A stretch of DNA of 64,000 nt. Source: Caenorhabditis elegans (Eukaryota > Nematoda > Chromadorea > Rhabditida > Rhabditidae). Positions 6,601 to 41,300 of this stretch are shown piece after piece. Both the position numbers and the translations under genes were made by a program. Each line of letters opens with the position of its first letter. The stretch's first letter is position 1. Under the pieces are notes generated by a model that did no database searches, had not been told where the DNA came from, and saw nothing but the letters and a program-made list of their open reading frames with translations. The stretch covers positions 11,470,001 to 11,534,000 of the forward strand of contig NC_003282.8 in NCBI RefSeq assembly GCF_000002985.6, written 5' to 3'.

Positions 6601-9232
6601 ATAACAAACATTCGATTTTTCAAAAATTAGCTCAAAATTTTGGCCATTTTTCATTTTTTTTTTAATGAGAAAATTATATGTTTCTTATGGTTTTCTGGAA
6701 AATCAAAAATGTTGGCTTTCCATTTTATGATAAGTCAGACAATTTTTTTTTTGAGACAAAGATTTGTCCTGTCGAGACAAAATATAAAATTCTTACCATA
6801 TTTCTGAGCACTTCTGGAGCACCTTTGACAGCTACAATGAATGTCGTATCAGAAGTTCCAGGTGATTGATATCCAGCAACAACTGTCATTCTCTTCATTG
6901 CCGATGAAAAGTGATAACGATGGAAGATTTTAATTCCAGAAATACCCTTGGCTGCTGTTTTAGGCGGCATTACAGCATCTCCTTTTGTTAAATTCCAACC
7001 ACACCATGAAAGACATGCTTTTTCCAATGGATCTCCAACGAGATCTTCTTCGAATCGAACGAGACTGTGACAAGATGCTAGAACTTGAAGACTTTCATGT
7101 GGAAGATCTTCTGCGTTTCGGATCATTCCTTCTTTTTGATTATTCAATGCAACTCCTTCAACAACCAAATTGTCAGTTGTCAATGTTCCTGTTTTGTCAA
7201 AACAACAGATATCGACTTTTCCGGCAAATGGAATTCGGAATGGTTCTGTACAAAAAATTCCCAATTTTTGAAGAGCCATCAATGATGAGTTGACAGCAAG
7301 TGATAATTCGATTGGAAGCTCCGGTGGGATAACAGAAGTGAGAATAAGTGTACATTCAAGGAACAATTTGTATTTACTCCGAGTCTCGTCAACTGATCCT
7401 TTGATCCAAAGATATGCAGCAGCGGCAATTGCGAAAATAAGAAGGAAAAGAATGAAACAGAAGGTTTCCAAATTGTTAGCAGTTGCTTTCTTGACTCCGA
7501 ACATGATAGTACGGAGGAGTTTTCCTTGAGAAGTGTTGAATCCAGTTCGAATTACATAACAGATGCAGTTTCCATCCGGTGATTTTACCTGCAAATTATT
7601 TAGCTGAGAATATGCCTTTTTCTCATTTTCTTAACGATGGAGTACAGAAATTTGGTCACAGGCTTCATTAGGTTCAAAATGGCCTGGTTCAAAGATTTGA
7701 TGAAAAAAAATTACTTCCAGCGAAAATCTCAAATTTTGTGTACAAGTCGCGGAAGGAAGTATTTTGGCAATTTATCACGCGTTGTTTCGTTGATTGAAAT
7801 GCCTTTTTAGTCAACAGAGTGATAATTTTTAAAAAATTAATTTGCGACGCTGAAAAATTGAAAAAAAATATATCAGATTTAACTGAAAATAAGTTTTTTT
7901 CTCAAAAATTTGAACCGCCATAACTTTTTAAAAGAAATTTTCACAATGTATGATCACGAAAGTCGGTATTTTTAACCAATTTGGGAATAATATATCTAAT
8001 GTCCAAAAATTAAAGAAATATAAAATACATTTTTGGTGACTCTAAAAACGTTGTATTTTCAAAATCTTACCATTCCCTCTGCAGCTTTTCCTGGTGCTGT
8101 GTGCTGAACAATCTTGGTTCCTCCGAAGATAACGTGTAATCTGCTGTCTGTTTCAATATCAAAGATCTTATCTTTTTCAACATCCTCAATTGGTTCTTTC
8201 ATTTGTGGAACACTTTCTCCAGTTAACATCGATTCATCAACGATACAGGGTCCACGTAGAAGCAGAAGATCACATGGAACACATTCTTCTTCAGCACCTC
8301 TTCCAATTGAAACGATATCTCCGGCCACTAACTCTTCAATCTTGATTTTTTGCCATTTCTTGCCACGGAGCACGTTAATCATATACGTTTTATTTCCCAT
8401 ATTCCGGATTTCAGACATATTCTTCATTTGCTGTTTGACGAGTGTTGCTTCGAATGTCATAAGCATGAAAAGTGTAAAAAGTGAATAATACCACATATCT
8501 TCCAGACACCACAATCCAACACAGAACACTTGAAAGACGAAGAATGGAGCTGTAGCTCTTTCAATGAACATTTCCAAGAATTGTGGAACAATCATTTCAG
8601 TTTTGTTGTCTCCGAGAAGATATTTAGCATCTTTAACATGCTCTTCAACTTCGAATCCGTGTGATTTTTGAAAGAAAACCATTGGTTTCGCAGTATCAAG
8701 AGTTTTCGTCTGAAATTCTCTGCTCTCTTCATCCCAAGTATAGTGAACTCTTTGAAATTCGAACCATAACTTTGTTTGTTTATCACGCTGAAATAATTCA
8801 TTTGAAGAAAATGTTTCTAAATAGTTGTGACTAACCGTTGTTCTCATAAGTTTAACTAATTCCGGCCATCCGTTATTTTGTGTAGGGATAACACACACAT
8901 GAGAAGCAATACGAACATCTTCTTGCTTTGAACACATGAGGAAACATCGAACAGGCATCATCCAATGACAGAAAAGAAGAACTAGTGCAAGAATCACAAA
9001 AATTGCTGCATATCCCAACATTCCAAGTTCATAATATTCTTCATAGCCGAAAATATTGAGCCAGACATATGTCCAGATTGCAGTGATTACTGAAAGATTA
9101 TATTTATTTTTAAAAATTCCATCTCATTAACTTATTCTTTGACTCACTTGTAAAAGGAGGAACATATAAATGAGTTGCTATAGACCTTAAATTGTATGGT
9201 ATAATAGTCTCGACTAGTTGGTCGACACCCAT
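3633..9232 (-). CDS. catp-8: P5A-type P-type ATPase
   Basis: Nine exons on the minus strand join in frame to 1178 aa: 9232-9148, 9089-8836, 8787-8071, 7588-6797, 6094-5092, 4748-4552, 4507-4368, 4033-3781, 3728-3633. Diagnostic motifs are TGES in the actuator domain, the P5A membrane motif PPELPIEL near residue 440, the phosphorylation motif DKTGTLTTD near 483, and [11 protein letters not shown] in the hinge. P5A ATPases (yeast Spf1, human ATP13A1) act in the ER and remove mislocalised or wrongly oriented transmembrane segments. In worms catp-8 is known to affect dendrite and ER protein homeostasis. Between the hinge motif and the last membrane helices there is a cytosolic insert of roughly 95 residues, charged, then Pro/Ala-rich, then acidic. 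The gene converges with wht-2 and probably follows mbf-1 in an operon. Several introns carry repeats (see separate entries). Confidence 0.95.
4145..4275 (-). repeat. tRNA-like (SINE-like) sequence in a catp-8 intron
   Basis: On the minus strand, 4257-4247 reads TGGTCGAATGG, a match to the RNA polymerase III A-box consensus. About 35 bp on, at 4214-4204, is GGTTCGTGCCC, one base off a typical B box. The spacing is that of a tRNA, but I cannot pair a clean acceptor stem, so this looks like a tRNA-derived element or pseudo-tRNA rather than a working tRNA gene. It is clearly more GC-rich than the surrounding intron. Confidence 0.55.
4812..5062. repeat. Foldback (MITE-like) element, GGTCTCG family, copy 1
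   Basis: The ends are imperfect inverted repeats. The left side has TACGGTACCCGGTCTCGATA followed by GCGCCTTT and GTACTGTAGTTT. The right side has the reverse complements (ACTACAGTAC, AAAGGCGCGCGC, TGTCGAGACC). It lies in a catp-8 intron and overlaps no coding exon. Related copies occur at 14843-15120, 18628-18915 and 29351-29644. Confidence 0.7.
6180..6720. repeat. TTTTTCGATTTTT-rich foldback sequence in a catp-8 intron
   Basis: The catp-8 intron at 6095-6796 is filled by AT-rich sequence with repeated TTTTTCGA / TCGAAAAA motifs in both orientations. A GCGCCTTTAAACTGTAATTT segment at about 6174-6193 resembles the arm of the GGTCTCG foldback family. A very similar TTTTTCGATTTTT block occurs in the THUMP methyltransferase intron at about 58930-59215. 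No coding signal was seen. Confidence 0.5.
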
Positions 9233-37700: not shown

Positions 37701-39572
37701 AGCAGGCACCCATTTTTTGCGGCTATCTCTACCCAAAAAAGTAAATACTTCTACAGCTAAATTTATTTTTTCAAAGTTACAACTCTAATATTCTATTTTT
37801 TCCAGACAATGCATTTCCACAAAAGAAAACTGGATCGAATAATCTATGAAATCGCTCAAACCCTTGAACTTGAAGTGTTAGACCCAATGAAACTAACAAA
37901 TATCACCCAAATGGAATACTTTATCACGGTAAGTTGGTAACCAGCAACTTCCTGCATTCAATCTCGTGATTTATATTATCCGTTTTCGTTTCTATTTCTC
38001 TTTTTTCTCCACTTATTCATGTTGATTGATTACTTTATAGCGTGCTTACGTCAAACTACTGAATGCCGAAGATTTGTACTCTGGAAGTACTTTTTATAAG
38101 CATGAGGATCCAAAAAATTTGAAATGGACATATGGATCTGCGTTCTTTTTTTCAATGAATGTTTACACTACTACGGGTTATGGTGGGTTTGAAGTTAAGG
38201 GACTAAATGAATAATTTGTAAAGTATTTCAGGATCCATTGCTCCATCATCTTCTCTTGGAAAAGCTCTTGTAATTGTTTATGGTTTGATATTTGTGCCCT
38301 TAACAGCCGTGGTAATTCGTGATCTTGGACAGTGGGCACTTCTATATTTAACCAAAATGTACACTATTCTTATCGATAGTTTCCGTCGAGTCAGAGGATT
38401 TGTTGATAAGCTCGATGAAGATGAGATTATCACTCTTCCCATCAAGTTTAGTGTTTCTGTAATGATATGTGAGTTTTCTATTCTAAGAAATTAAAATTAA
38501 AATTTTCAATTACAGTATACTTACTCTCCGCTACAATGTTTATATTCGAATACGACGAACTGTCTGGACCACCTGATTCTGGAATTTCATTTTTCCATGC
38601 TTTCTACTTTTCATTCATTTCAATGTCAACTATCGGTTTAGGAGATGTTATGCCAAATAATGTAACATTCTCTCCATTAATCACTATTATGTTTTTCTTT
38701 GGAATGCCGATTCTTAAAGTTGTCAATAGAGTTACGTATATTTGTCTGGAAAATGGAGTTTTTGGTAAGTGGGCTGAGATTGTTTCCATATCAAAGATTA
38801 CAAAACATTTTAGGATCGATGACAGTGCTTGAAAATCGACTAGATACCATTTGGAGCAAGGCAACAGTATTACCAACAGGCCAAGTGATTTCTGAGCCAC
38901 CAACGATAGATGTTGCAAGTCGGAAAACGTCGATGTTGAGTGAAGGAATGATTCCAGATGAAGTGAGTTTTGAAAGGGAAGATAATAGAAAAATAAGATT
39001 GGCGTGGAGAAAAGTGTAGGTGTAATTTACGATATCTAGATTCATTTAAGCCTTGCCAGTCATATTTTTGATCTCGTACTGTGAGATTACTGTGGATATT
39101 TCGTAGACAGCCGAAATCAGCAAACTATAACAGCGGGTGTATTGAAAAAAGGAAAAAGTTAGGTGTTTGGCTGTAGGTTTTTGCCCAAGTTTGACTCAAA
39201 AATTATTAACTTGGCTGAAAGTTGTTTGCTTCAAGCCTAGGCTAGCCTTGCCAATCTTTGACCATAATTTTTTTGTATCTTTTCAAACTCGGGAAAGAAT
39301 TTGGCGCCTTATGCCGAGTAGGGTATCTGCCTAAATAGCAAATTCCTTCTCACTGTCATCCCCATTTTCAGAACGATGGTTCGGTTCCAAATGAATACCT
39401 GAACAACTTCACAATTCGTTCCATTGCAACATTCATGAAAGCCAACGGAGATGTATACGGAGGTGCATTTGGTCGTGTGAATATCCGTCGAGGTGACATA
39501 CGGAACCCAGGGTCTGCTGCTGATAATCAAGCAACTGTTCGATCAACTTCCCAAAGAGAGAATAATGTTTAA
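34776..39572 (+). CDS. Two-pore-domain (TWK) potassium channel
   Basis: Fifteen exons give about 697 aa: 34776-34826, 34870-35008, 35054-35181, 35504-35604, 36442-36550, 36603-36635, 36682-36790, 37039-37218, 37249-37391, 37806-37928, 38041-38182, 38232-38468, 38516-38764, 38814-38962, 39372-39572. Pore 1 has TTTGYG near residue 415 and pore 2 has TIGLGD near 537. The first membrane helix is near 305-325 and the M1-P1 extracellular loop is long and has an N-glycosylation site (NIT). Such channels set background K+ leak at the plasma membrane of neurons and muscle. Unusual is the roughly 285-residue cytosolic N-terminus, rich in Ser, Thr and acidic residues with RRKS-type phosphorylation sites. 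The intron 37219-37248 is only 30 nt, so that junction is uncertain. The gene number within the twk family cannot be decided from memory. Confidence 0.88.
35205..35400. repeat. GCAGGCA-type dispersed repeat in a TWK intron
   Basis: The intron 35182-35503 holds GACGTGCCTGCCTACTGCCT and, inverted at the other side, CGAGGCAGGCGTAGGTCGCC. Similar GCAGGCA blocks lie at 37598-37712 (same gene), 41216-41270 and 42635-42680. This is one dispersed family, often with inverted ends. Confidence 0.6.
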
Positions 39573-39895
39573 TTGTGGAATTTTACCTAATAATAACTTA
39601 GTTAAAATAGTTTGACAAAAAACAAGAGCAACCATATTTGTACAATTTTTACATATCAAAACTTCTCCCAGTCATATTTATTTACTGATGTTTTTAAAAT
39701 TTTCATAAACAATACTATTTTTGAAATGAGTTCAACAGAATTAACATTTATTAAGGTTTAATTAAAAGAGAGATCGTGGGATTGGAGGGAAAGCTGATGA
39801 TAATAGATAATGTGATGAATCAAATAAATAAATTCTTTCGTCGTTTACTAACAATTTGTGAGTCGTGAAAAGTGGCGCGGAATGTCAAATTGCAA

Positions 39896-40745
39896 TTACT
39901 TCAAATTACGAAAATCGGAGAACAAGGGGATCGATCGTTTCGAAGATTTTCGAGTTACAACAAGTGGAAGACGGCTGTCATCGTTGTAGGTCAGCATGCA
40001 TTGAACTGGTGAAAAGAAGCAATTACGGTCATATCTCTTACGTTCAACGATCATTTCCTCTCGTGATGGACTATCGTAGTTTCTGGAAATATTGCTGATT
40101 AGTTGCACTTTAGATCTTTGATGAAGCTTCTAGAAGTAACATCATAGAGCATTTTCCGGACAAAGCGATCATGTCTAGGGGGTCTGATCAACCCTGTGAC
40201 TGATTATTTATGAGGTGGAGGTGGGCTTTACGGAACATTTTGCGCTGTTTCTACGATCAACGAAATGATCAGTAGAAGATTTTCAGCAATCGCGGAGAAG
40301 TTTCAGCAACTCCCCTCGTGGTGCGGATTTAGAAAACGTGACAAACCAACTTTCAGGAAGTATGACGTCACAAAAATGCTTCGGTTAAATTTCTGTAATA
40401 CATGCATGCCGTTAAACTTTTCAAATATGAGGTTGCGACGATTTTCAGAATGATTCTAGTAGAAAACATGTCGGCATGTTACAGGAGAGGGAGGTTTGCA
40501 TGTGTTCCAAAGGGGACACTTTGACTGCTTCTAGAGAAGCTACAGTAACCAATGGATGGTATCCTTACAGACTTTAAATAGAGAGAAACAGGATATCTCG
40601 TACCGAAAACCAATTTTTACGACCAGGATCTTTAGATCAAGTTACATCAAACTTACGTGATAATTCCATATCGACTGAAACGTGGTAACTGAACGAGTGC
40701 TGACGTGGCGACGACGCAGAACAATAGAATCAGCAGAATTGACAT
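39896..40745 (-). CDS. Candidate C-type allatostatin/somatostatin-like neuropeptide precursor
   Basis: Two exons, 40745-40657 and 40082-39896, join in phase to 91 aa. Exon 1 begins with a strong signal peptide (MSILLILLFCVVATSA). A GATTTTCAG acceptor lies 20 bases upstream of the ATG. After a spacer the protein has a basic cleavage site ERKR, then YDRNCFFSPVQCMLTYN, and later KSSKR before SIPLFSDFRNLK and the stop. The Cys-x6-Cys loop with F and P (CFFSPVQC) has the size and pattern of arthropod allatostatin-C (CYFNPISC), which forms one disulphide and signals through somatostatin-type receptors. Its location at the C-terminal part of a short precursor also fits. What is seen is the signal peptide, dibasic sites and spacing. 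The family assignment is inference. It converges with the TWK channel. Confidence 0.65.
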
Positions 40746-40765
40746 TTGTGCGCGTGTATGTTACC

Positions 40766-41300
40766 TGAAAATCGTTGTAGTAATAGGGTTGGAATATATG
40801 TCAAATCGAAAAGATCTTAATAAATTGAGTTTAGAAAAGCGGAATGAGCTCTTGAGAGAGAACCCGAGCCGAAATATAGGAGAGGGGCGTGGTCATTGAT
40901 AGAATCGACGGAAAAGCGTGAGGCAAGGAGAAGGGGAGTTATAAATCAATCAGATACGAGTTACTGGGGACAAATATCAAGGAGAGAGGGAATTTTTTGG
41001 TGATGCCGACTGACGATATGTTCGGAGACGAAAAGGAGGAGGTTGTCATGTATGACGTGGCAGAGGGTGATCTGATTAGAAATGTGGATGTGGGAGCTCC
41101 AACTTCCAGAAGCCACTTTTTTCTGAAATTAATCTCCATCTAGATTTTCAGAAGTTTGCAACTTCTATCGAGCTTTGGTAAATTAACTTCTAGAAAAATG
41201 CAAAGGTGTACGTGTCTGCATCCTACCTGCCAGCCTACTTTTCGCATTGGAGGAAGACAGGTAGACAAACTATTTTGTGCCTTCATAGAATGAATATTTC
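40766..41300. other. Upstream region of the neuropeptide gene
   Basis: Probable promoter of the minus-strand neuropeptide gene. It includes a GCAGGCA-like fragment at about 41216-41270. No further exon was identified. Confidence 0.35.

Follow-up and report, generated by a model that had tools for sequence, protein, structure and literature searches.

In insects, allatostatin-C (AST-C) peptides carry a PISCF motif (PMC8514136, PMC11959706), and a 2020 study characterizes the protostome type by a pair of cysteines that enclose six residues, F-x-P among them (PMC7536072). According to the same source, SS/ASTC genes typically have a phase-0 intron within the N-terminal portion of the coding sequence; it reports a phase-2 intron as an additional intron of the fly and Caenorhabditis elegans ASTC-type genes, and already shows a C. 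elegans ASTC-type peptide and gene. NLP-99, the product of T05A8.3 (PMC9881375), has been described as a somatostatin/AST-C ortholog that acts on the Gi/o-coupled receptor NPR-16 (PMC13082328). According to that paper the synthetic peptide GDGYGWNDCEFSPLSCLL, closed by a C9-C16 bridge, activates NPR-16, whose sole known activator is NLP-99, and the peptide is released from AIY neurons and controls the RIS sleep neuron. In general, the authors saw weaker phenotypes for nlp-99 than for npr-16, and they suggest redundancy (Park et al. 2026, PMC13082328). At least eight putative somatostatin-like receptors of C. elegans were counted in a 2012 survey, with npr-24 nearest to the insect and human ones (PMC3524798); neither NPR-24 and NPR-32 nor nlp-88 are named in the main text of PMC13082328.

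Further genes of this kind have been published. To nlp-55, -62, -64, -66, -67, -71 and -79, McKay et al. 2022 (PMC8764417, section 3.6.2) add nine novel allatostatin-C-like genes, which they grouped by an analysis of motifs, BLAST matches and clusters. C. elegans has four of these nine genes, nlp-88 to -91, which share the motif RNCFF(S/T)P(V/A)QC and a signal peptide; the entries given are M04B2.6, C35B1.7 and two WBGene entries that are both printed as K02A6.1. These four genes are described as apparently neuron-enriched, and nlp-88 is stated to be conserved in other nematodes (PMC8764417). Here we analyse a peptide gene in a stretch of 64,000 nucleotides from C. elegans chromosome IV (the window; contig 4, 11,470,001-11,534,000) and compare it with these systems.

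Gene structure and predicted precursor

The gene lies on the minus strand and comprises two exons (window positions 39896..40745), with the start codon ATG at 40745-40743, the stop codon TAA at 39898-39896 and a spliced product of 91 amino acids. The following features were located:

40765..40771, minus strand: TTTTCAG, which may serve as a trans-splice leader acceptor, lying 20 bases upstream of the start codon
40657..40745, minus strand: exon 1, 89 coding nucleotides, encoding the hydrophobic, signal-like MSILLILLFCVVATSALVQLPRFSRYGII and ending within the codon that follows
40083..40656, minus strand: intron of 574 nucleotides, GTAAGT...TTTCCAG, phase 2 as in all six paralogue models (splice sites picked by eye); the donor GTAAGT runs from 40656 and the acceptor ATATTTCCAG ends at 40083
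39896..40082, minus strand: exon 2, with the ERKR site, YDRNCFFSPVQCMLTYNDDSRLPLVVTRKSS, KR, the short tail SIPLFSDFRNLK and the stop
39998..40021 (IV:11509998-11510021), minus strand: CFFSPVQC loop (Cys-x6-Cys), located by the genome pattern match
39747..39752, minus strand: AATAAA, possible poly(A) signal, starting 146 bases past the first base of the stop codon
39682 (AATAAA), 39762 and 39573 (both ATTAAA): further possible poly(A)-type signals

The precursor starts with an N-terminus that is hydrophobic by reading of its letters, followed by ERKR, a single core RNCFFSPVQC whose first cysteine is residue 51, and SSKR. The sequence YDRNCFFSPVQC follows ERKR. As there is no basic site immediately after CML in the precursor, the mature product may extend well past the core. 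A first-pass annotation of this DNA had proposed the two-exon minus-strand gene, and on re-reading the sequence its coordinates and the phase-2 join proved exact. The ERKR site and the CFFSPVQC loop that it described are likewise present, as are a signal-like N-terminus and the TTTTCAG, a possible leader acceptor, which ends at 40765. A Pfam scan of the precursor gave no family at E up to 0.01, and a PDB sequence search gave no match at E up to 10.

Two other open frames of the window may be mentioned. About 1 kb from the peptide gene, the plus-strand frame 38473-38829 has an Ion_trans_2 channel domain and perhaps represents a two-pore potassium channel. The minus-strand frame 8062-9123 has E1-E2 ATPase and P5A-ATPase domains; the C10C6.6 lesion of the catp-8 paper, at LG IV 11,479,010, corresponds to window base 9,010 and falls inside it (PMC8279360), which places the window on C. 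elegans chromosome IV.

Identity of the gene

The window core, RNCFFSPVQC, agrees with the published motif RNCFF(S/T)P(V/A)QC. In a domain scan of the window, one open frame showed a YEATS domain and another showed zinc-finger domains. The former fits GFL-1, a YEATS protein, and the latter MEP-1, a zinc-finger protein. In the literature, gfl-1 is M04B2.3 (PMC2726613) and mep-1 is M04B2.1 (PMC10520889). Because both frames fit these neighbours, with their shared clone prefix, we infer that the window gene is M04B2.6. It is most likely nlp-88 rather than nlp-89 to -91, as judged by the order in which the genes are listed.

The gene and its assignment to the allatostatin-C-like class are thus already known, and the proposal of a new candidate gene in the first-pass annotation was not borne out, given this identification by neighbours. 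A literature search for nlp-88 to -91 and M04B2.6 by name found nothing beyond PMC8764417. The exact core letters gave no match in the literature searched, a misleading negative because the publication writes the core as a degenerate motif.

Related loci in the genome

We searched the genome (100,286,401 bases, 7 contigs) for related sequences. A DNA pattern for C-x-F-x-P-x-x-C matched 547 places (275 + 272) compared to 397 (205 + 192) for a reversed-pattern control, so close to background that the loop motif by itself is weak evidence. The 22-residue core RKRYDRNCFFSPVQCMLTYNDD is more selective: at E up to 10 it matched 7 places, of which one is the window gene itself and six are further loci (E 1.7e-4 to 0.048), while the reversed core had no match in the genome at the same threshold. 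The six loci are at X:16.185, IV:4.110, X:8.2245, X:8.2185, II:8.295 and X:8.2199 Mb, and their cores read RNCYFSPIQC, RNCFFSPVQC, RNCFFTPVQC, RNCFFSPAQC (twice) and RNCFFSPVNC; the core match at X:16.18 Mb extends over a TAG at its end. With the 91-amino-acid precursor as query, the gene's own two exons and three of these six loci were recovered (E 3.3e-5, 0.0012 and 0.098). The X:16.185 peptide as query retrieved, apart from its own locus, the window gene (E 2.2e-4) and a further paralogue (E 0.059), and missed the remaining four.

Each of the seven genes, the window gene included, could be modelled as two exons, the first of them hydrophobic, joined across a phase-2 intron with GT-AG sites, the X:8.2185 model having a weak donor, GTGAAT. 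The splice sites of all seven models were picked by eye to fit the frame, which makes the agreement in phase supportive rather than a blind test. C, F, P and C are invariant in all eight aligned cores (the seven modelled genes and NLP-99).

Whole-precursor alignments of the window gene with each of the six loci, which had been preselected by their core, gave z values of 9.7-14.0, and none of 500 shuffles reached any of these scores. When 12 residues around the core were masked, z dropped to 1.3-4.6, with 1, 62, 63, 0, 26 and 5 of 500 shuffles reaching the score in the six comparisons; common hydrophobic leaders may explain the better values. It is thus chiefly the core, together with the gene structure, that relates the seven genes.

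A segment of about 6 kb, X:8218513-8224603, contains three of the modelled genes. Two of them, X:8218513 (minus) and X:8219885 (plus), are divergent genes that align with z 36.5 with their cores masked and are clearly recent duplicates as judged by this similarity. We infer that the three are K02A6 genes; the two published K02A6 entries would then omit one of them from nlp-88 to -91. The published motif fits five of the seven modelled genes, compared to four published ones. The paralogue at X:16184856-16184921 ends in SYPRNCYFSPIQCLFTRN and is by eye the nearest of the seven to insect AST-C.

A stricter loop pattern matched 20 places in the genome compared to 8 for its control, and 5 of these places fall in the seven modelled genes. 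We inspected 9 of the other 15: seven are unclear or chance-like, and two resemble further members, namely IV:6409788-6409811 (minus; KNCYFSPIQC, KNCYFSPIQCVL) and II:9775322-9775345 (minus; RRCIFSPIHC, DRRCIFSPIHCLF), both with basic residues near the core. An exon search at the nine places gave a single model, at II:9775322, with a phase-1 join, so that the phase-2 rule is shown for the seven models only.

NLP-99 lies outside the reach of these searches. Its peptide as query of the genome found only itself at E up to 10 and none of the seven genes, and neither the window core nor the 91-amino-acid precursor reached NLP-99. The link from the window gene to the ligand of a known receptor consequently rests on six shared core residues. 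Exon 1 of NLP-99 was not found in 9.9 kb scanned for phase-0 donors and strongly hydrophobic starts only.

Discussion

Our data support an allatostatin-C-like neuropeptide gene as the best reading of the locus. The class proposed in the first-pass annotation is the one to which M04B2.6 has been assigned in print (PMC8764417), and it is in keeping with the paralogues found genome-wide. CFFSPVQC has the Cys-x6-Cys spacing with F-x-P given for protostome AST-C (PMC7536072), whereas the sole coding intron of the model is in phase 2 and there is no phase-0 intron in the N-terminal part. Because of this combination we term the gene allatostatin-C-like and not a proven AST-C ortholog.

The gene is very probably M04B2.6, most likely nlp-88, and encodes a single allatostatin-C-like neuropeptide that would be secreted, cut, cyclic and active on a receptor. 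The precursor would enter the secretory pathway and be cut at ERKR and SSKR, perhaps also at further basic residues, and the two cysteines would close a ring. Released from neurons, the cyclic peptide would act on a Gi/o-type receptor of the somatostatin/allatostatin-C class, by analogy with NLP-99 on NPR-16. Action of such a neuron-released peptide on one of the putative somatostatin-like worm receptors is the likeliest mechanism.

Two other explanations have to be weighed. The first is convergence: a nematode family of secreted cyclic neuropeptides could have come to resemble AST-C in its Cys-x6-Cys core independently, and the product, as one of its members, would then act on an unrelated class of receptor. 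The motif is short, similarity outside the core is weak in the core-masked shuffle comparisons, and the NLP-99 query fails to reach the family, all of which would fit convergence, as would the absence of the phase-0 N-terminal intron (PMC7536072) and the statement that NPR-16 responds solely to NLP-99 (PMC13082328). The six residues common to the window core and NLP-99 (C, F, S, P, C, L) argue against convergence, and so does the published motif, BLAST and clustering analysis that places the genes in the allatostatin-C-like group (PMC8764417), so we regard it as unlikely. A secreted peptide with a small disulphide loop but another role than that of a neuropeptide, for example antimicrobial, seems very improbable: a small cysteine-containing precursor with a hydrophobic leader would suit it, but the single core is flanked by dibasic sites and the published genes appear neuron-enriched (PMC8764417).

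The preferred reading, an allatostatin-C-like neuropeptide, bears on receptor assignment. The first-pass annotation expected a nematode ligand of this class to link worm somatostatin/allatostatin-type receptors to a known arthropod system; through another gene, such a ligand already has a somatostatin/AST-C-type worm receptor, NLP-99 acting on NPR-16 (PMC13082328). C. elegans has a set of AST-C-like peptide genes, among which a receptor is reported for NLP-99 (PMC13082328). It is conceivable, though we hold it somewhat short of probable, that the M04B2.6 peptide and its paralogues are further ligands of receptors of this class, either as a second ligand of NPR-16 or as ligands of receptors such as NPR-24 and NPR-32. 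If there is a second NPR-16 ligand, the milder phenotypes of nlp-99 relative to npr-16 would be accounted for. For the redundancy that Park et al. 2026 suggest (PMC13082328), the window gene and its paralogues offer direct candidates that can be tested.

Comparison with known systems

Between the window gene and nlp-88/M04B2.6 as described in PMC8764417 we found no difference, consistent with their being the same gene. The Cys-x6-Cys spacing and the F-x-P are common to the window peptide and insect AST-C of the PISCF type (PMC7536072). The insect peptide finishes with an F behind the second cysteine, whereas the worm peptide may run on, and the window gene is without the phase-0 intron typical of SS/ASTC genes.

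NLP-99 differs from the window peptide in its core letters (NDCEFSPLSC compared to RNCFFSPVQC) and ends at CLL before KR, whereas the window peptide has no basic site right after CML. The acceptor ahead of the NLP-99 peptide exon reads as phase 0, in contrast to the phase-2 intron of the window gene. Both peptides have Cys-x6-Cys with F-S-P and an L two residues past the second cysteine, which gives six shared core residues (C, F, S, P, C, L), and in NLP-99 the signal sequence is encoded in exon 1 and the peptide in exon 2 (PMC13082328), as in the window gene.
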